From: Massilia aurea
Lineage (GTDB): Bacteria > Pseudomonadota > Gammaproteobacteria > Burkholderiales > Burkholderiaceae_D
Length of the DNA stretch: 64,000 bases
Reading direction: 5' to 3'
NCBI RefSeq assembly: GCF_014200505.1
Contig: NZ_JACHBX010000001.1
Span: 868,001-932,000, forward strand
Part shown: in pieces, positions 14,677 to 60,597 of the stretch
Numbering within the stretch: the stretch's first letter is position 1
How the letters are laid out: every line of letters starts with the position of its first letter
Position numbers and translations under genes: made by a program
Notes under the pieces: model-generated
What the model was told of the DNA's origin: nothing
Database searches by the model: none
What the model saw: only the letters and a program-made list of their open reading frames with translations

Positions 14677-14886
14677 ATGGAAAATCGAATCGATCACTTT
14701 ACTAGCATCCAAGTCGATTTGGCCATGGCAGTTTCAGTTGCATTTGGATGGGCAGCAGGCGTTGAAGTAGCGCGAGATATGGGGATCGATATCCAGATTT
14801 TTCAGCGTGTATTACTCAAGGGTGGTCCGATGCATGCCACTAATAACGCGCTTGTACTGTCGTCACGTGCGAAGCCGTGCACGTAG
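14677..14886 (+). CDS. Small unknown protein, QRVL-GGP family member A
   Basis: 69 residues. It aligns without gaps over most of its length with the proteins at 18760 and 19515: an opening D-x-x-T, then VDLAMAVSVAFG, a Gly-containing turn, a helix (VARDMGIDIQ) and FQRVLLKGGPMH. This member has KGGPM where the other two have DGGPRR, and a longer unrelated tail. Conservation across three nearby paralogues argues that it is a real gene. Two amphipathic helices followed by a short basic tail is all that can be said of structure. Function unknown. Confidence 0.6.
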   Translation: MENRIDHFTSIQVDLAMAVSVAFGWAAGVEVARDMGIDIQIFQRVLLKGGPMHATNNALVLSSRAKPCT

Positions 14887-18447: not shown

Positions 18448-18705
18448 TCAGTCCTTCAGGCGCGACTGCTCGTGAATCACTAGCTTGTTTTCGAGCATCG
18501 TGCGCAGCGAGTCGGCCAGGATGAGCGCGGTTGACGATGAGCCCTGGCAAAAATAGTCATGCGCAGGAAGCGCTAGCGCGCGTAGCCGCGCCACCTCCCA
18601 CAATAGCGCGCGCACGTCAGAGGATCCCGGGTTGCGATCGTAGATCGCTTTCAGATCGTCATTGGTGAGCTCGGGTTTGAACCGCATGGCAGGAGTACTG
18701 TTCAT
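18448..18705 (-). CDS. Small conserved hypothetical protein
   Basis: 85 residues. The central part, LTNDDLKAIYDRNPGSSDVRALLWEVARLRALAL, is typical of a short helical protein widespread in Massilia-like genomes; the remainder is a second helix (TALILADSLRTMLENKLVIHE). No membrane segment or catalytic motif. Function unknown. It is transcribed divergently from the small protein at 18760 with only 54 bases between starts. Confidence 0.6.
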   Translation of the reverse strand: MNSTPAMRFKPELTNDDLKAIYDRNPGSSDVRALLWEVARLRALALPAHDYFCQGSSSTALILADSLRTMLENKLVIHEQSRLKD

Positions 18706-18759
18706 CCATACAGTGTATCATACTGACCCCTGCCTCTATTTACGCTCAGCCGAAAATAA

Positions 18760-18990
18760 ATGAATCCAATTCCGCGACTCGACCGTATAACTGCTGCTCA
18801 CGTCAACCTTGCAATTCACGTGGCGGCAGCATTTAGCCTGAGTGATGGCGTAAAATTGCTGCACGACACAGGTATTGCGCCAGCGCTGATACAGCGAGTT
18901 TTGATCGACGGCGGACCACGGCGCAGCGCTACTGCAGCCAGGCCTGAATTGTTTTCGCATGCTTCGCATCTCGGCGCAGAAACCCAATAG
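18760..18990 (+). CDS. Small unknown protein, QRVL-GGP family member B
   Basis: 76 residues: LDRITAAHVNLAIHVAAAFSL, a Gly turn, VKLLHDTGIAPALIQRVLIDGGPRRS. It is a paralogue of the proteins at 14677 and 19515, closest to the latter in the DGGPRR ending. The final 18 residues are not conserved. Predicted as two helices with a basic end; unknown role. An independent start close to the divergent gene at 18705 suggests a shared promoter region. Confidence 0.65.
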   Translation: MNPIPRLDRITAAHVNLAIHVAAAFSLSDGVKLLHDTGIAPALIQRVLIDGGPRRSATAARPELFSHASHLGAETQ

Positions 18991-49196: not shown

Positions 49197-50263
49197 TGGG
49201 CCGGATGTTCTGGGCGGGGCGCAGCGCCGCACTGTACCTGGCGGCCTGGCTGATGCTGGGGCTGATGCTTGCGGGTCTGCTGAACGCGGCCACCGGCGCC
49301 GGCATCCCGGGCAGCCTGCTGTTCGCGCTGCCGCTGATGCTGGTGTATGCGAGCGTGTGCGGCTTTTCGAGCTACTACCTGTGCCGCGCCTATCCGCTGG
49401 CAACCAAGTCGCTGCGCTCGGTGCTGGTCGTGTTCTTTGTCACGGCCGCCAGTGCGGCCTCCCTGTGGTGTGCGGCGGCGGTGGCGTGGGCGGCATTCTG
49501 GCGCTGGCTGGCGCCGTCGATGGGCGGCGTGCAGCTCTCGCCACCTGTCGCCGCGGTGATGTTTGGTGTGGGCGTGCTGCTGTACGGGATGACAGCCTGC
49601 GCGCATTATCTGGCGCTGGAGTTCGAGCGCGCGCGCCGGCTGGAAACGCGCGAACTCGAACTGAAGCTGCTGGCGCAGGACGCCGAACTGCGCATGCTGC
49701 GCACGCAGATCGACCCGCACTTTTTATTCAACAGCCTCAATTCGATCAGCGCGCTCACCAGCATCGATGCCGACGCCGCGCGCGACATGACCTTGCAACT
49801 GGCCGGCTTCTTTCGCCACACGCTGGGACTCGAGGCGCACCGCAAGGTCCTGCTGTCCGATGAAGTGGAACTGACGCAGCGCTTCCTGGCGATCGAGCAG
49901 GTGCGCTTCGGCCCGCGCCTTGCGTTCGCGTGCGAGATGGCGGATGACGCGGCGCGCTGCCTGCTGCCGCCGATGATTCTGCAGCCGCTGGTCGAGAACG
50001 CAGTCAAGCACGGGATCGGCCAGCTGCCGCAGGGCGGCGTGGTGCGCGTGCACGCGGTGCGCGCCGGCTCACAACTGAAGCTGCGGGTCGAGAACGACGT
50101 CGATCCGGATGACGGGGCGCCCGGCAAGGGCGGCGGCGTGGGCCTGGCGAACGTGCGCCAGCGCCTCGCCGCTGTGTATGGCATCGACGCGAGCGTGCAC
50201 GCGACGCGCGATGGGGCGATTTTTCGGGTGGACCTGATCCTGCCCGCAGACATGGGAGACTGA
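49196..50263 (+). CDS. LytS-type membrane histidine kinase
   Basis: 355 residues, start overlapping the stop of the preceding gene. Four hydrophobic segments fill the N-terminal 140 residues, with no separate sensory domain. The kinase core is of the LytS/His_kinase type: LRTQIDPHFLFNSLNSISAL with the phospho-His in DPHFLFNSLN, then LLSDEVELTQRFLAIEQVRFG, QPLVENAVKHGIGQL (N box) and GVGLANVRQRLAAVYG (G box). These kinases phosphorylate LytTR regulators, and the downstream gene is one. The LiaF-like proteins encoded before it could be its regulators, an arrangement that resembles LiaFSR in logic but uses LytSR-class partners. Confidence 0.9.
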   Translation: MGRMFWAGRSAALYLAAWLMLGLMLAGLLNAATGAGIPGSLLFALPLMLVYASVCGFSSYYLCRAYPLATKSLRSVLVVFFVTAASAASLWCAAAVAWAAFWRWLAPSMGGVQLSPPVAAVMFGVGVLLYGMTACAHYLALEFERARRLETRELELKLLAQDAELRMLRTQIDPHFLFNSLNSISALTSIDADAARDMTLQLAGFFRHTLGLEAHRKVLLSDEVELTQRFLAIEQVRFGPRLAFACEMADDAARCLLPPMILQPLVENAVKHGIGQLPQGGVVRVHAVRAGSQLKLRVENDVDPDDGAPGKGGGVGLANVRQRLAAVYGIDASVHATRDGAIFRVDLILPADMGD

Positions 50264-51000: not shown

Positions 51001-53286
51001 TCAGCGCGAGTTGTGCGCGCCGAGCTCCCACCAGGCCGGCATCAACGCACGGATGCCTGGCTGCGCAAAGCGGTCGTCGATCAGCCACACCACGCCGCGA
51101 TCCTGTTCGGTGCGGATCACGCGGCCGGCCGCCTGCACCACTTTCTGGATGCCGGGGTACAGATACGTGTAATCGTAGCCGGCGCCAAACAGCGTCTGCA
51201 TCCGCTCGCGCAGCTGCTCGTTGACGGGGTTCACCTGCGGCAGGCCGAGCGTGGCGACAAACGCGCCGATCAGGCGCTCGCCCGGCAGGTCGACCCCTTC
51301 ACCGAACGCGCCGCCCAGCACCGCAAAGCCCACGCCCGCGCCGCCGATGGCGAAGCGGTCGATGAAGCCCTGGCGCGCGGTTTCGCTCATGCGGCGTTCC
51401 TGGCGCCAGGCCGTCACGCCCGGGTCCAGCTTCGCCAGCGCGCCGGCCACCTGGTCCATGTAGTCGAAGCTGCTGAAGAACGCCAGGTAGTTGCCAGGAC
51501 GTTCGTGGAACTGGCGGGCAATCAGTTCGGCGATCGGCTGCACCGACGCGGCGCGCGCCTGGTAGCGGGTCGAGATGCCTTTGGCGACATGCACGTCGAG
51601 CTGGCTGGCCGTGAACGGCGAATCCACTTCGACCCAGGCCGTGTCGGCCGGCAGCCCGAGCGTATCGGTGCAGTATTGCCAGGTGCCGAGCGTGCCGGAG
51701 AACAGCGTGCTCGAATGCGACGCGGCAAAGCGCGGACCGAGAAACGGTGCCGGCACCACGTTGCGGATGCAGATGGTCGAATCGCGCAAGGTCGGGCGGT
51801 CGGCGTCGCGCGACAGGTCCACCAGCGAATGCGGCCCGAACGACTCGGCCAGCCGCGCAAATTGCAGCGCGTCGAAATGAAAGCGCTGCAGGTCAGGGTC
51901 GAGCGGACCGGGGAAGGCGGCCAGGTGTTCGTTGATGGTGCTGGATGCATCCTGCAGTGCATCCACCAGTTTCGCCGGCATCGACTCGAGCAGCTGGTAC
52001 GGCGCGGGCGCGCCCTTGTCGACATTGGTCCAGGCGCGCCCGACGCGCTCGAGCGCTTTCTTGACGGCGGGCGGGGCGACGGCGCGCGCGGCGCGCAGCA
52101 GCTCGCGGTCGATCTCGGCGCTGTACATCGAGCGCGCGCGGTTGACCAGGTTGTGGGCTTCGTCGACCAGCACGCTGGCCTTCCAGCCATTGGCCTGTGC
52201 GAGCGCGTACAGCATCGCGCCGCCGTCGAAATAATAGTTGTAGTCGCCCACGATCATGTCGACCCAGCGCGTCATCTCGCTACCCAGGTAGTACGGACAG
52301 ACGTCGTGGTCGAGGGCGACCGTGCGCAGCGCTTCGCGGTCCAGCACCAGCACTTCTGCCGCAGCGGCGCGTGCGGCAGGCAGACGGTCATAGAAGCCGC
52401 GCGCCAGCGGGCAGGCGTCGCCATGGCACGCTTTATCCGGATGCTCGCAAGCCTTGTCGCGCGCGGTCAGTTCCAGCACGCGCAGTGGTGTTGCCGTGGC
52501 GCTGCATAGTTTGGCCGCGCCATCGAGCGCCAGGCGCCGGCCCGGCGTCTTCGCGGCCAGGAAAAACACCTTGTCGATGCCTTGCTGCGGCATGGCCTTC
52601 AAGGTCGGGAACAGGCTGCCGACCGTCTTGCCGATGCCGGTCGGCGCTTGTGCGAGCAGGCAGCGCCCGCTCGTGTTGGCGCGGTAGATGCTCTCGGCCA
52701 GGTGACGCTGGCCCGGCCGGAAGTCGGCATGTGGAAAGCGCAGCTGGGTCAGCGCATCGTTGCGCGCGGTGCGGTGCGCGCTCTCCTGTGCTGCCCAGCT
52801 CGAGAAGCGTTCACACAGGCCCGCAAAATGGGTCTGCAGCCAGGCGCTGTCGCGCTGTTCGCGCAGCACGGTTTCAACGCCGCTGCCGATGTCGTAATAG
52901 ACGAGGGCCAGGTTGACCGTATCCAGGCCGCGCTCCTGGCACAGCAGGTGGCCATACACGCGTACCTGCGCCCAGTGCAGGTGGCGATGGTTGTCGGGGA
53001 TGGACTCGGGGCGGCCGCGGTGCGTTTTGATCTCTTCGATCAGGTTCTCGTTTTCGTCGTAGCCGTCGGCGCGCCCGCGCACGCGCAAGCCGTTCCATTC
53101 GCCGGACAGCGGCAGCTCGGCGCGGTAGCCATCGCCCCGGCGCGCAGCGACGACGGCGTGGCCGGCAATGCCTTCCTGGGCGCTGGGCGAGGGCGTGAAG
53201 CGCAGGTCGAGGTCACCGGCCTTGGCGGTGAACTCGCACAGCGCGCGCACGGCGATCGTGTAGGCGGGTTGCGTGGTACCGGTCAA
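51001..53286 (-). CDS. PD-(D/E)XK nuclease-XPD/DinG-like helicase
   Basis: About 761 residues from a TTG at 53286, chosen because it starts right after the upstream nuclease gene stop. The N-terminal 130 residues form a PD-(D/E)XK nuclease (RVRGRADGYDENENLIEEIKTHRG, with Asp, Glu and Lys in place). The helicase half has Walker A in QAPTGIGKTVGSLFP, a DEAH box in LVDEAHNLVN, and Cys residues (CEHPDKACHGDACP, VCPYYL) at the expected 4Fe-4S position of XPD-like helicases. Later motifs include LFSGTLGTW and GAFGEGVDLPGERL. Superfamily 2, 5'-3' DNA unwinding expected. Forms an operon with the FAN1-like gene behind a LexA-type box. Confidence 0.88.
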   Translation of the reverse strand: MTGTTQPAYTIAVRALCEFTAKAGDLDLRFTPSPSAQEGIAGHAVVAARRGDGYRAELPLSGEWNGLRVRGRADGYDENENLIEEIKTHRGRPESIPDNHRHLHWAQVRVYGHLLCQERGLDTVNLALVYYDIGSGVETVLREQRDSAWLQTHFAGLCERFSSWAAQESAHRTARNDALTQLRFPHADFRPGQRHLAESIYRANTSGRCLLAQAPTGIGKTVGSLFPTLKAMPQQGIDKVFFLAAKTPGRRLALDGAAKLCSATATPLRVLELTARDKACEHPDKACHGDACPLARGFYDRLPAARAAAAEVLVLDREALRTVALDHDVCPYYLGSEMTRWVDMIVGDYNYYFDGGAMLYALAQANGWKASVLVDEAHNLVNRARSMYSAEIDRELLRAARAVAPPAVKKALERVGRAWTNVDKGAPAPYQLLESMPAKLVDALQDASSTINEHLAAFPGPLDPDLQRFHFDALQFARLAESFGPHSLVDLSRDADRPTLRDSTICIRNVVPAPFLGPRFAASHSSTLFSGTLGTWQYCTDTLGLPADTAWVEVDSPFTASQLDVHVAKGISTRYQARAASVQPIAELIARQFHERPGNYLAFFSSFDYMDQVAGALAKLDPGVTAWRQERRMSETARQGFIDRFAIGGAGVGFAVLGGAFGEGVDLPGERLIGAFVATLGLPQVNPVNEQLRERMQTLFGAGYDYTYLYPGIQKVVQAAGRVIRTEQDRGVVWLIDDRFAQPGIRALMPAWWELGAHNSR

Positions 53287-53287
53287 A

Positions 53288-54943
53288 TCAGGCCGCCATC
53301 TCGGGCGCCAGATCCCAGACCAGATAGCAGACGGCCACCGGCATCGCATGCGCGGCGCAGTACTCGATCCAGCGCTGCTGGTTGTCCTGCAGGCGGTCGC
53401 CTGGGCCTTTCACTTCGATCATCATGTAGCGGTTTTCGAGGGGGAAGAACTGGATCAGGTCGGGAAAGCCCGTGCGGTTTTCGCGCACGTCGGCCAGGAT
53501 CCGCTCGCACCACTTGCGCAGGTGCGCGGCCGGGATGCAGTCCAGCGCCAGTTCGACCAGCTCAAGACTGATGCCGTCCCAGTGCACGAACGGCGACTGC
53601 AGGCCGGCCTTGTCGCGGTAGGTCGCGCGGATGGTGTCGCGGTAGGCGCCGGAATCGAGTTCATCGAAGCAGGCGGAAAATTCGGCCAGCCGGCGCCCGT
53701 AGAAGTCGGCGCTGTACAGGTCGGCCGGGCCGCGATGGAACGGGTGAAAGAAGGCACCGGGGATCGCGGCGAAGATGGCGCGCCAGCACAGCAGGCCAAA
53801 CAGCGTATTGGCCAGCGCGTTTTCGACATAGAACACGGGCGCGCCGTCTTGCGCCAGATGGTCGCGCACCGCACCCTCGACCCAGCGCTCGCCGTTCGGT
53901 GGCGCCAGGCACAGGTCGATGCGCTGCACCTCGGTTTTCGGCAGCCGGCCCAGGCGCGCGTGACCCAGTCGGCGCGCCAGGCGCGGCGCGATGCGGGCCA
54001 GGTGCTGGCGCTCGGCGTCGTTCTCGGGGGTGGCCTGGGCCTCGGTCAGCAGGGCCCAGGCGTCGTCGAAGCGCTCGTGTTTTTCGAGCACGCGGATGGC
54101 GCGGCCGCGCGCGCCGGGATAGCGGCAGCGGGCGTAGGCGGCAAAAGCGCCATCCCAGTCTTTCTGCTTTTCGTAGTGCTGGCCGATCTGGAACACGAGC
54201 TTTTCGCGCCGGCTGGCCAGCCAGTCGTTGTCGAACGCATGCTCGGGCAGGTCGCGCACGACATCCTCGACGGCTTCACCGGCAGCGAAGCGTTCGCGGC
54301 ACGCGTGCAGCAGGATGTAGTGGTCGATGTCGGCGCGCTGGCGAAAACCCCGCGAGGCCGGCGAGATGTCGACCTGCTCGTAGCGGAACAAACCCAGGTC
54401 GGACAGCACGAAGTCGGTCCAGCCCTGGCGAAGGTTGCCGAAAAAGACCAGGCGCAGGCGATCGCACAGGGGCTTGACGTGGATGCGCCAGGCGACGTCG
54501 GCGCAGTCGCCGTACCAGCCCGAGAAGCGGCGGGGATCGGCGCAGTCGGCCCGCAACGCCTCGAGCAGGTCGCCCTTGCGCGCGCTTTTCTGGCGCAGGT
54601 GCGGGAAGGCCTCGGCGACTTCGGGCTTGGAGAGCAGATCGAACAGTTCGTCGAGCGAGAGTTCGGGATCGGCTTCGATCCAGCCGGTGCCCAGCAGGTG
54701 GCCAGCCGCCTCGACGGGGCAGCCGATCTCGGCGTAGCGGAGTTTACTGGCGCGAAACAGCGTGCCTTTTCGCATGACCATGCGCACGAACAGCGCACGC
54801 GCCGCATGTGGCAGGGCAGGGAAGGCGGCCAGGAACGCGTGCTCCTGCGCGTCGAGCAGGTCGGCATAGCGTTCGCCGATCCAGTCGAGAACGCGCTGAA
54901 AGTTGTCCAGATAATAAAACTCGTTTTCCAACAACCTGATCAT
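53288..54943 (-). CDS. FAN1-type VRR-NUC structure-specific nuclease
   Basis: About 551 residues from the ATG at 54943 (a GTG two codons upstream is possible). The C-terminal VRR-NUC domain reads NRTGFPDLIQFFPLENRYMMIEVKG followed by DNQQRWIEYCAAHAMPVAVCYLVW, with the Asp, Glu-x-Lys catalytic set. The helical region upstream has a TPR-like block (YEKQKDWDGAFAAYARCRYPG, ARGRAIRVLEKHERFDDAWAL) and an SAP-like N-terminus, as in Pseudomonas FAN1, an interstrand-crosslink nuclease with 5' flap activity. The downstream helicase gene starts two bases after its stop region. A LexA-type box lies seven to thirteen bases upstream of the start. Confidence 0.88.
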   Translation of the reverse strand: MIRLLENEFYYLDNFQRVLDWIGERYADLLDAQEHAFLAAFPALPHAARALFVRMVMRKGTLFRASKLRYAEIGCPVEAAGHLLGTGWIEADPELSLDELFDLLSKPEVAEAFPHLRQKSARKGDLLEALRADCADPRRFSGWYGDCADVAWRIHVKPLCDRLRLVFFGNLRQGWTDFVLSDLGLFRYEQVDISPASRGFRQRADIDHYILLHACRERFAAGEAVEDVVRDLPEHAFDNDWLASRREKLVFQIGQHYEKQKDWDGAFAAYARCRYPGARGRAIRVLEKHERFDDAWALLTEAQATPENDAERQHLARIAPRLARRLGHARLGRLPKTEVQRIDLCLAPPNGERWVEGAVRDHLAQDGAPVFYVENALANTLFGLLCWRAIFAAIPGAFFHPFHRGPADLYSADFYGRRLAEFSACFDELDSGAYRDTIRATYRDKAGLQSPFVHWDGISLELVELALDCIPAAHLRKWCERILADVRENRTGFPDLIQFFPLENRYMMIEVKGPGDRLQDNQQRWIEYCAAHAMPVAVCYLVWDLAPEMAA

Positions 54944-54955
54944 GACCACCCGCGT

Positions 54956-54975
54956 TACTGTTCTTATGTACAGTA
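54956..54975 (-). promoter_or_regulatory. LexA (SOS) box upstream of the FAN1-like operon
   Basis: Core CTGTTCTTATGTACAG matches the CTGT-N8-ACAG consensus exactly, and TA dinucleotides flank it on both sides. On the minus strand it overlaps a TATACT -10-like hexamer and ends seven bases before the GTG (13 before the ATG) of the FAN1-like gene, a typical repressor position. This predicts SOS induction of the repair operon. Confidence 0.85.
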
Positions 54976-55030
54976 TAAGCCCGGGTGGACAGGGAATCCA
55001 GCAGTTTCGGCGCGATCGTCCAGTGCGGCG

Positions 55031-56835: not shown

Positions 56836-59800
56836 ATGGCGCGATTCTGGAATTTCCTGACCGGCAGCCGCATGCTGATCCTGATCGGTGTGCTCGCCAT
56901 CGCGGCGCTGCTGGTGCTTGGCGCCGTGGCGCTGGACATCGCCATTGTCTGGGCCGCCATCGTGGGCCTGGCCTTGCTTGGCTGCTGGGGCGCCGGCTGG
57001 ATGATCCGGCGTGCCTGGCGTGCGCGCGAAGGCGCCAGGCTGGCGTCGGCCATGGCCGAGGGCGAGGGCAGTGGTCACGCCTCGGACGATGGGATGGACG
57101 ACAACGGCAAGGGCGACGTCGCCGTGCTGCGCAAGAATCTGCTCGATGCGGTCAGCACCATTAAGACGTCCAAGCTGGGCCTGACACGCGGCGCGGCGGC
57201 GCTGTACGAACTGCCGTGGTATATGGTCATCGGCAACCCGGCGGCGGGCAAGAGCAGCGCCATCGTGCGCTCGGGGCTGACGTTTCCGATCCCCGGCAAC
57301 AAGGCCGTGCAGGGCGTGGGCGGCACCCGCAATTGCGACTGGTTCTTCACCACCGACGGCATCCTGCTCGACACGGCCGGGCGCTACTCGGTGCAGGAGG
57401 ACGACCGCGACGAGTGGTTCGGTCTTCTCGACCTGCTGCGCCGCCATCGCCACCGTGCGCCGGTCAACGGCATCCTGATTGCCGTGAGCGTGGCCGAACT
57501 GATGGCCGGCCCGGCCACGGCATCGCACGAACTGGCCAAGAACCTGCGTACCCGCATGCAGGAGCTGACCGAGCGCCTGGGCGTGCATCCGCCCGTGTAT
57601 GTCGTGTTCACGAAAGTCGACCTGGTGGCGGGCTTCGTGGACTTTTTCCATGGCAGCGAACAGGCCGAGCGCGAGCGCATCTGGGGCGCCACGCTGCGCT
57701 ACAACCGCCGCAGCGCGCCGCAGGATGTGCTGGCCTTCTTCGACGATGAGTTCGAGGCGCTCGTCGATGGCCTGAAAGAGATGAGCCTGGCCGGCATGGG
57801 CGCCAACCGCAGCACCCTGATGCGCCCCGGCGTGTTCACGTTTCCCCTCGAATTCGCGGCGATCAGGACGCCGCTGCGCGCCTTTCTGGCCACGCTGTTC
57901 GACGAAAACACGTACCAGTTCAAGCCCGTGTTTCGCGGCTTTTACTTCACCAGCGCGCTGCAGGAAGGGAGCGTGCAAGACCTGTCGAGCCAGCGCGTGG
58001 CCAGCCGCTTCGACCTGGCGCTGGGCAATCGTGAAGGCGCGGTGGCCGAGCCGGCAGCCGGGCAATCGGGTTACTTTCTGCTGGACCTGTTTCGCAAGGT
58101 GATCTTCGCCGACCGCGACCTGGTCAGGCGCTACACGCATCCAGCAGCGGCGCGCTGGAAGCTGGGCCTGTTCTTCGCGGCCACGATCCTGCTGGGCTGC
58201 GCGATGGGCGGCTGGTCCTGGGCGTATATGGGCAACCGCCAGTTGGTGGCCAATGTGCAGGCCGACCTCGACAAGGTGACCAGGCTGCAGGCCGGCCGCA
58301 TCGACCTGCAGTCGCGGCTCGAAGCGCTGGACATCCTACAGGACCGCATCGAGCTGCTCGATGGCTACAGCCAGGACAAGCCGTGGGCGCTGGGCTTCGG
58401 CCTGTACCAGGGCGGGCAGCTGTCGCGCAAGCTGCGCGACGAATACTTTGCCGGCGTGCGCGCCGTGATGGTCGAACCGGTGACCGGCGCGCTCGAGACC
58501 ATGCTGACGGAGGTGAACAGCAATGCGGCCAGCCTCGATCCAACGCGCCAGGCGGCCACGCCGGCGGCCCGGCCCGGCCAGCCGTACCAGGATGCGTCGC
58601 CCACCAGCGTGGGCGACGCCTACAACGCGCTCAAGACTTACCTGATGCTGGGCGATAAAGCCCACGCCGAGCCGGGGCACCTGAATGACCAGCTCACGCG
58701 CTACTGGCGCGGCTGGCTGGAAGCGCACCGCGGCGCAATGCCGCGCGAGCAGATGATCCGCAGCGCCGAACGCCTGCTCAGCTTCCACCTGGCCAACATC
58801 AATGACCCGGCCTGGCCGCAGATGACGCTCAAGCTTGGCCTGCTCGACACCACCCGCGAGCACCTGCGCCGTGTGGTGCGCGGCACGCTGGCGCGCGAGC
58901 GCGTGTACGCCGACATCCGCACGCGCGCCGCGACGCGCTTCCCGGCGGTGACGGTGGCGCGCATCGTCGGCGAACAGGACAGCGCGCTGGTGGCCGGCAG
59001 CCATGCAGTCAGCGGCGCATTCACGCGCGCGGCGTGGGACAAATTCGTGCTGGGCGCGATCCGCGAAGCCTCGAACCGCGAACTCAATACCGTCGACTGG
59101 GTGCTCAAGACCACGGCGCGCGACGACCTGACGCTCGAGGGCAGCCCGGAGCAGATCCAGAAGGCGCTGATCGATCTGTACAAGGCCGACTATGCACGCG
59201 AATGGGTCAAGTTCGTGCAGGGCGTGGCGATCACCGACCTGCGCGGCTTCGATGCCAGCGTGCAGGCGATGAATCGTCTGGGCGACCCGCAGACGTCGCC
59301 CATCGCCAGGCTGCTGCGCACGATCCATGAAGAGACCGCCTGGGACAATCCGGGCGGGTTGCGCCAGCCCGCGAGCAAGACCGAGCGCGGCGTCGCCGAG
59401 TGGATCAAGCAGAAGATCCTGCGCCGGGCGCCGTCCGACGCGCGCACGCTGGCCGACACTATCGACCCGGCCGAACTGACCGGCGGGCCGCAAAGCGCGG
59501 GCCCGATCGGCCGCGAATTCGCCGGCGTGGCGCGCCTGGTCGGCGCCAAGGAGAAGGAGGCATCGCTGATGACGGGCTACCTCGATGCGCTGTCGCGCCT
59601 GCGCACGCGCCTGAACACGCTGAAGAACCAGGGCGACCCGGGGCCGGGCGCCAAGCAGTTCATGCAGCAGACACTCGAAGGGACCGGCTCGGAACTGGCC
59701 GAGGCGCTGCGCTACGTCGACGAGCAGATGCTCACCGGGATGAGCGAGAGCCAGAAAAGCGCGCTGCGGCCGCTGCTCGTGCGTCCGCTGACGCAGACCT

Positions 59801-60597
59801 TCGCCATGATCGTGCTGCCATCCGAGGCCGAGATCAACAAGACCTGGCAGGCGCAGGTCGTCGAGCCGTTCACGCGCACGCTGGCGGCCAAGTATCCGTT
59901 CGCGCAAGGCGCCAGCATCGAGGCCACACCGGGCGAGATCGGCCAGGTGTTCGGGCCCGACGGCGCGGTGGCCAAATTCGTTGGCACGGCCATGGGTCCG
60001 CTCGTGGTGCGGCGCGGCGACGTGCTGGCCCCGCGCACCTGGGCCGACATCGGCATCTCGCTCGCGCCGCAGGCAGTAGCGGCGTTTCCGGCCTGGATCG
60101 CGCCGCTGTCGAACAACGGCGTGGCGGCCGGCACGGCGGCGCAGACCGTGTTCCAGGTGCTGCCGCTCACGGCGCCCGGCACGCTCGAATACACGCTGGA
60201 GATCGATGGCCAGCAACTCCGTTACCGCAACACCCCGGCCAGCTGGAGCAATATGGTGCATCCGGGGCCGCAGGGTGTATCGGGTGCGCGCGTGTCGGCC
60301 GTCACGTTCGATGGCCGCACGGTGGAACTGTTCAACCAGCCGGGCCAGTTCGGCCTGCAGCGCCTGTTCGAGTCGGCCCAGCGCACGAAGAAGGACGACG
60401 GCGTGTTCGAGCTGCGCTGGAGCGGCAGCAATGTGACGGTGGCTGTCGACCTGAAGATCGTCAGCAGCCCGCAGGCGGGCGGGGGCGGGGGCGGGCAGGC
60501 GCAGGGCCAGGGTTTTCGTGGCATGCGCCTGCCGCCGGCAATCGTCGGCCGCTTCGATGCGGCGGCGCCTGCACTGGCCAGTACGGGAGGCCAGTGA
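56836..60597 (+). CDS. tssM: Type VI secretion membrane protein TssM (IcmF)
   Basis: 1253 residues, full family length. Two N-terminal membrane segments (residues 10-60) and a third near 450 (LGLFFAATILLGCAMGGWSWAYM) bound a cytoplasmic NTPase-like domain with Walker A GNPAAGKSS at 133-141. The large periplasmic C-terminal region and the final beta domain (VSGARVSAVTFDGRTVELFNQPGQFGLQRLFESAQ) are typical of TssM. With TssL and TssJ it makes the trans-envelope complex on which the baseplate docks. TssJ is not in the window. The stop overlaps the tagF start (TGATG). Confidence 0.95.
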   Translation: MARFWNFLTGSRMLILIGVLAIAALLVLGAVALDIAIVWAAIVGLALLGCWGAGWMIRRAWRAREGARLASAMAEGEGSGHASDDGMDDNGKGDVAVLRKNLLDAVSTIKTSKLGLTRGAAALYELPWYMVIGNPAAGKSSAIVRSGLTFPIPGNKAVQGVGGTRNCDWFFTTDGILLDTAGRYSVQEDDRDEWFGLLDLLRRHRHRAPVNGILIAVSVAELMAGPATASHELAKNLRTRMQELTERLGVHPPVYVVFTKVDLVAGFVDFFHGSEQAERERIWGATLRYNRRSAPQDVLAFFDDEFEALVDGLKEMSLAGMGANRSTLMRPGVFTFPLEFAAIRTPLRAFLATLFDENTYQFKPVFRGFYFTSALQEGSVQDLSSQRVASRFDLALGNREGAVAEPAAGQSGYFLLDLFRKVIFADRDLVRRYTHPAAARWKLGLFFAATILLGCAMGGWSWAYMGNRQLVANVQADLDKVTRLQAGRIDLQSRLEALDILQDRIELLDGYSQDKPWALGFGLYQGGQLSRKLRDEYFAGVRAVMVEPVTGALETMLTEVNSNAASLDPTRQAATPAARPGQPYQDASPTSVGDAYNALKTYLMLGDKAHAEPGHLNDQLTRYWRGWLEAHRGAMPREQMIRSAERLLSFHLANINDPAWPQMTLKLGLLDTTREHLRRVVRGTLARERVYADIRTRAATRFPAVTVARIVGEQDSALVAGSHAVSGAFTRAAWDKFVLGAIREASNRELNTVDWVLKTTARDDLTLEGSPEQIQKALIDLYKADYAREWVKFVQGVAITDLRGFDASVQAMNRLGDPQTSPIARLLRTIHEETAWDNPGGLRQPASKTERGVAEWIKQKILRRAPSDARTLADTIDPAELTGGPQSAGPIGREFAGVARLVGAKEKEASLMTGYLDALSRLRTRLNTLKNQGDPGPGAKQFMQQTLEGTGSELAEALRYVDEQMLTGMSESQKSALRPLLVRPLTQTFAMIVLPSEAEINKTWQAQVVEPFTRTLAAKYPFAQGASIEATPGEIGQVFGPDGAVAKFVGTAMGPLVVRRGDVLAPRTWADIGISLAPQAVAAFPAWIAPLSNNGVAAGTAAQTVFQVLPLTAPGTLEYTLEIDGQQLRYRNTPASWSNMVHPGPQGVSGARVSAVTFDGRTVELFNQPGQFGLQRLFESAQRTKKDDGVFELRWSGSNVTVAVDLKIVSSPQAGGGGGGQAQGQGFRGMRLPPAIVGRFDAAAPALASTGGQ

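Follow-up and report, generated by a model that had tools for sequence, protein, structure and literature searches.

Background

Bacterial FAN1 already has structures and biochemistry, and the paper titles in one reference list show that it has been studied for the unhooking of crosslinks. The FAN1 of Pseudomonas aeruginosa (PA1865; structures 4r89 and 5y7g) and human FAN1 have the same domain order and catalytic residues as the Massilia FAN1 described here, and homology to the P. aeruginosa protein is nearly full-length. According to the available text of a 2026 UV study of P. aeruginosa (PMC12796719), expression of PA1865 rises with UV-C and ciprofloxacin and falls with hydrogen peroxide, and PA1865 and PA1866 are named among the genes outside three known damage regulons. 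The same text neither states LexA control of PA1865 nor assigns the gene to LexA, whereas LexA control of the Massilia gene is predicted from a box at its promoter.

The second gene of the Massilia locus has its closest described counterpart in EndoDinG of Bdellovibrio (PMC11981726, section 3.7), with which it has in common the PD-(D/E)XK residues H, E, D, E and K, a four-cysteine Fe-S motif and an XPD-type core. EndoDinG is also defined, according to that review, by a truncated Arch domain and the missing strand 7 of MD2. Section 3.7 mentions neither LexA nor SOS in connection with EndoDinG, whereas the Massilia helicase has FAN1 as its partner and a LexA-type box upstream of the pair, and the main text of the review gave no match for FAN1 or VRR. 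The review also describes E. coli DinG and YoaA as XPD-type helicases under LexA, and FANCJ as acting in crosslink repair (PMC11981726). Human FANCJ/BRIP1 and XPD have a related helicase core; they are eukaryotic proteins with no nuclease domain and serve as an analogy only. Against the NCBIfam DinG and YoaA models the Massilia helicase scores 81 and 79 bits, compared with cut-offs of 598 and 680. To our knowledge, DinG and YoaA of E. coli have neither a nuclease domain nor a FAN1 partner.

A search of titles and abstract openings, in which subscription papers were mostly outside the scope, found no report of a bacterial FAN1 in the LexA regulon. The parts of the locus are of known kinds, and the joint, conserved SOS membership of FAN1 and EndoDinG appears to be unreported in the literature searched.

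Results and discussion

The gene pair and its box

We use "the window" for the whole 64-kb stretch of DNA that was analysed. The locus consists of the following features:

54972..54977, minus strand: -10-like hexamer TATACT (upstream alignment; 7 of 7 aligned same-genus loci)
54956..54975, minus strand: LexA-type (SOS) box TACTGTACATAAGAACAGTA, 16-bp core at 54958-54973 (sequence, pattern scan, conservation)
53288..54943, minus strand: FAN1 nuclease gene, 551 aa, ATG at 54943 (Pfam domains, structure-sequence matches)
53321..53650, minus strand: VRR-NUC catalytic domain of FAN1, residues 432-541 (Pfam)
51001..53286, minus strand: EndoDinG-type nuclease-helicase gene, 761 aa (DEAD_2, Helicase_C_2, 9kqh match)
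52849..53259, minus strand: N-terminal PD-(D/E)XK nuclease domain of the helicase, about residues 10-146 (conserved residues, predicted model)
52297..52449, minus strand: four-cysteine Fe-S motif of the helicase, C280, C287, C292 and C330 (residue conservation)

The perfect CTGT-N8-ACAG box that the original prediction placed before FAN1 is real, and it belongs to a longer match: both the sequence and a pattern scan agree with TACTGT-N8-ACAGTA at 12 of 12 positions. The core reads CTGTTCTTATGTACAG on the plus strand (TACTGTACATAAGAACAGTA being the coding strand) and is separated by 14 bases from the FAN1 ATG, ahead of which lies an in-frame GTG at 54949. The TATACT hexamer and the box have two bases in common. 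A promoter scan of the FAN1 upstream region returned no consensus promoter, hence no consensus -35.

The identification of the first gene as a FAN1-type VRR-NUC nuclease is borne out by the whole domain set and by the match to a known structure. Three Pfam families, FAN1_HTH, FANC_SAP (SAP) and VRR_NUC, score above cut-off, the match to 4r89 reaches 663 bits, and both 4r89 and 5y7g are matched over residues 6-544. Residues E374, D495, E510 and K512, taken to be those of the catalytic site in the FAN1 structures, are kept in 255, 255, 254 and 255 of the 255 FAN1 loci compared, 239 of which are distinct in sequence. In-frame stops had been reported for some FAN1 or helicase genes; at 15 of 16 loci the aligned part contains no such stop, and the stop at residue 548 of L042 is the natural end.

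The second gene was described at first as a PD-(D/E)XK/XPD-like helicase, and its DEAD_2 and Helicase_C_2 domains, conserved residues and structure match agree with that description. By sequence, residues 11-753 of its 761 match the DinG of Finegoldia magna (PDB 9kqh). Nuclease residues H43, E57, D74, E85 and K87 are kept in all 225 loci compared, and the cysteines C280, C287, C292 and C330 in 223, 220, 224 and 224 of them. The predicted model has block pLDDT values of 87-95 over residues 41-160, except for one block of 66, and is of low confidence beyond the N-terminal domain (mean pLDDT 72.7, pTM 0.50); superpositions of this weak model (rmsd 13-22 among the matches listed) were left unused. 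Judged by its PD-(D/E)XK residues and CCCC Fe-S motif, the helicase matches the EndoDinG subgroup.

The probable start of the helicase is a TTG one base after the FAN1 stop, in keeping with the expected distance of no more than two bases. Across loci, the most frequent arrangement is a 4-base overlap of the helicase start with the FAN1 stop (73 of 213), and spacing falls between -30 and +60 in 144 of the 213, with no start placed in 48; these figures favour short gaps because the script took the start nearest the stop.

Chance occurrence of the box

Three perfect 8-position boxes occur in the window, where 0.73 were expected and 2 of 100 shuffles reach three. Genome-wide, the count of 34 sites compares with 29 for a reversed control and is not an enrichment. 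The short box alone therefore proves little, and we rejected the bare 8-position box as stand-alone evidence. The full 12-position TACTGT-N8-ACAGTA is found at 6 of the 34 sites, against an expectation of 0.15 (independent bases, GC content of the window). Five of these six precede FAN1, Pol IV, imuA, an error-prone DnaE2-like polymerase (fragmentary, and scoring below the model's cut-off) and vsr, where the box also faces a 58-aa ORF. The sixth belongs to a tandem pair of boxes that separates a PAP2 gene from a 92-aa ORF. The genome's own lexA has a perfect box, TACTGTACAAAAATACAG, that starts 49 bp upstream, and its recA has a 7 of 8 site. The box at the FAN1 promoter matches that of lexA in the same genome, a feature of LexA regulon membership.

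Conservation of the box

FAN1 is present in 66 of 145 genomes of the window's own family. We read 64 of these loci, the other two being a fragment and a locus at a contig edge. Downstream of FAN1, all 64 have a helicase match in the stretch read, among them all 31 whose downstream sequence extends to 3 kb or more. A perfect box occurs within 200 bp upstream of FAN1 at 46 of the 64 loci and a box of at least 7 of 8 at 53, counts that are not independent events because the loci are related by descent. For comparison, dinucleotide shuffles of the same upstreams gave 0.2% perfect and 4.0% at least 7 of 8, and other windows of the family loci gave 5 and 111 of 1708. At least one genome has the perfect box in 11 of the 17 genera. 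The exceptions are concentrated in particular genera: g15 (4 loci; best scores 6, 6, 5 and 5) and g30 (1 locus; 6) have the gene pair and no box, g23 (best scores 7, 6, 5 and 5) and g22 are mostly without it, and in g26 it is missing from one of five loci. One g15 genome retains a perfect lexA box despite its boxless FAN1.

Within the genus, an alignment of seven upstreams (7 of 8 loci, one near-identical omitted) has TATACTGTA as an invariant island between diverged flanks.

FAN1 is far more widespread among the Pseudomonadaceae, where it was found in 352 of 398 genomes. To compare upstream regions more widely, we combined the best 80 of 546 confirmed FAN1 loci from a scan of named genomes, mostly Pseudomonas, with 70 Pseudomonadaceae loci from 69 genomes (one genome twice), comprising 30 best matches and 40 hand-picked ones among the matches listed. 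Another 23 loci were added from the genus of a PAO1-like genome, which was already included; one broken match was left out, and FAN1 is present in 25 of 25 genomes of that genus. Removal of identical upstreams left 159 (Pseudomonas, Halomonadaceae and others), a set in which two Massilia loci overlap the family set. The box is perfect in 39 of the 159 and at least 7 of 8 in 154, compared with 0.11% and 4.6% of shuffles. All 23 further loci of the PAO1-like genus, a subset of the 159, have a box of 7-8 of 8, while three Halomonadaceae loci reach only 5-6 of 8. The usual 7 of 8 form is CTGT-N8-CCAG, and the same form precedes lexA in the PAO1-like genome. In that genome, the nearest to P. aeruginosa among those searched, with a FAN1 93% identical to that of PAO1, a perfect box starts 37 bp upstream of the aligned FAN1 start, and the helicase adjoins FAN1.

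In the rest of the class, few genomes have a FAN1 relative (19 of 369, counting the window's own). Among the 18 other loci, one of which aligns in its C-terminal part only and so has an unsure upstream position, the box is perfect in 3, at least 7 of 8 in 6 and below 7 in 12; shuffles gave 0.6% perfect and 7.5% at least 7 of 8. The expectation that the box would be conserved in relatives holds for most of the family and nearly all of the wider set, but fails for some genera. Taken across genera, conservation of the FAN1 box, as scored in the upstream sequences, is far beyond the level of the shuffles.

Separated gene pairs

The helicase is not always the neighbour of FAN1: it is missing from that position at 24 of the 80 named loci (the best 80 of 546) and at 12 of the 70 Pseudomonadaceae loci. 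All 12 of these split Pseudomonadaceae genomes encode the helicase elsewhere, at 57-61% identity. In 11 of the 12, a 7 of 8 box of its own precedes the separated helicase, no more than about 110 bp from the aligned start, and the twelfth has a site of only 6 of 8; the FAN1 box of 7-8 of 8 is kept in all 12. Control windows reached at least 7 of 8 in 21 of 256 cases, although these were 215 bp long, compared with the 290 searched upstream of the helicases. Most of the split genomes look like one clade, and the data probably reflect one or two separations rather than twelve. By this pattern, the apparent switch accompanies each gene in most of the examined bacteria in which the pair is separated.

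Proposed regulation and function

The SOS link suggested by the original reading of the box is strongly supported, because the comparative evidence (conservation of the box, the boxes of lexA and recA, and the split pairs) points the same way. Gene identities, the tight junction, the conserved box and the presence of boxes on both genes when they are split are features of the sequences themselves. From these features we infer that LexA binds the box, that the two genes share one transcript and are induced in this organism, and that their products cooperate on a crosslink or stalled-fork substrate. Most probably, the genes of FAN1 and EndoDinG make up an SOS-regulon operon for DNA repair, and direct LexA control of the pair is very likely, given the form and conservation of the box.

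In the proposed mechanism, LexA would sit on the palindromic box, overlapping the -10 region, and keep the operon low. Damage would lead to RecA-stimulated cleavage of LexA and release of the operon, and FAN1 and EndoDinG would be produced together from one message. From what is known of the two families, FAN1 would cut 5' flaps and unhook crosslinked or branched DNA, and EndoDinG would unwind in the 5'-3' direction and trim with its own nuclease domain. The strand, once cleared or resected, could then be passed to recombination or translesion polymerases for completion of repair.

The boxes predict LexA control of PA1865 and PA1866 as well, PA1866 being presumably the helicase from the order of the genes. 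If this is true, part of the extra layers of regulation that the available text of the 2026 UV study leaves unexplained in P. aeruginosa (PMC12796719) would be plain SOS. LexA control of the pair would also make the substrate and partner of FAN1 testable in ordinary bacteria, and would give EndoDinG, the role of which is only predicted in section 3.7 of the review (PMC11981726), a partner and a likely job.

What that job is can be read in more than one way. Crosslink repair is a plausible purpose in view of the FAN1 literature. The pair could also be SOS-controlled and act mainly at stalled or collapsed forks and on recombination intermediates (flaps, gaps, R-loops) rather than on crosslinks as such, a reading that we consider a serious possibility while leaning somewhat against it. 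Section 3.7 of the review likens the EndoDinG nuclease domain to RecE, EXO5, Cas4, AddA and Dna2 (PMC11981726), and the agents to which PA1865 responds in the available text of the UV study (PMC12796719), UV-C and ciprofloxacin, are not typical crosslinkers, both of which suit a role at forks; the paper titles that tie bacterial FAN1 to crosslink unhooking do not. The two roles overlap, moreover, and sequence cannot separate them. More tentatively still, and with some doubt on our part, FAN1 and EndoDinG may constitute a dedicated, damage-induced unhooking-and-resection unit, a bacterial counterpart of what FAN1 plus FANCJ/DNA2 do in human crosslink repair, that is held under SOS control across Beta- and Gammaproteobacteria and would explain the induction of PA1865/PA1866, assigned to no regulon in P. 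aeruginosa.

LexA control itself could be mistaken if another regulator bound at the box, or if the box were under constraint as an element of the promoter. In favour of this, the TATACT hexamer shares bases with the box and has been conserved along with it, and the box is absent from some genera. However, conservation extends to both palindromic arms, perfect boxes in the family begin anywhere between about 28 and 127 bp ahead of the gene (180 bp in one case), and the site is similar to the box of lexA in the same genomes, which together make this explanation improbable.

A LexA-controlled repair operon also accounts for the locus better than a role in defence, in which the helicase would be a CRISPR type IV DinG or another defence protein and the pair would act against phages or plasmids. 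The PADLOC typeIV_DinG model PDLC01439 does match the helicase (E=1.1e-113), and the patchy distribution of FAN1 in its own family is of the kind often seen for defence genes. Yet FAN1 matches no PADLOC model and is near-universal in Pseudomonadaceae, and the helicase has a nuclease domain and four intact Fe-S cysteines, unlike CasDinG, for which the source text describes a vestigial FeS domain. We regard a defence function as very improbable and set it aside.

That the VRR-NUC gene is an antibacterial effector of nearby type VI secretion genes is scarcely credible: VRR-Nuc effectors are on record (PMC9635880, in the text available) and icmF (IcmF/TssM family; 56836-60597, opposite strand) starts about 1.9 kb from FAN1, but the protein has the whole FAN1 domain set and its 663-bit match to P. 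aeruginosa FAN1, Pfam reported only FAN1 domains and no N-terminal PAAR or PAAR-like domain, and a conserved helicase partner stands in place of an immunity gene.

Other observations

A phage origin was tested against the viral collection, in which FAN1 has no relative and the helicase only three (L350, L351 and L352). Each starts at a contig end, and they are perhaps host DNA beside prophages.

Three distant FAN1 relatives (L118, L119 and L120; 23-25% identity) have no helicase match in the locus, and all three have boxes of 7-8 of 8: TACTGTATATAAATATAGTA, TACTGTTTTTATAGACAGTA and AACTGTATATAATTATAGTA.

Several other perfect 8-position boxes of the Massilia genome lie before recognizable genes. 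These are the vsr endonuclease gene (G000:C2:984436, L052), a gyrase-B-type gene that is probably parE (G000:C4:374110, L060), a PA0069-family radical SAM gene (G000:C3:73103, L053) and an rSAM_link_UDG gene (G000:C4:118028, L057). A box at 49580 of the window is internal to a histidine-kinase gene and was put down to chance.

In the window, at 18698-18990, a perfect LexA-like box, TACTGTTCATCCATACAGTG, starts 62 bp before a 76-aa ORF. Two paralogues of this ORF, at 14686 and 19524, are both without a box. Relatives (among them loci L337, L338, L339 and L343) were found in 18 of the genus's 61 genomes, its own included. The main match is preceded by a perfect box, at a distance of up to 200 bp, at 5 of 15 loci, again counting its own; TACTGTACGTTTATACAGTA is an example. 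These ORFs could possibly represent an unknown family of small proteins under SOS control.
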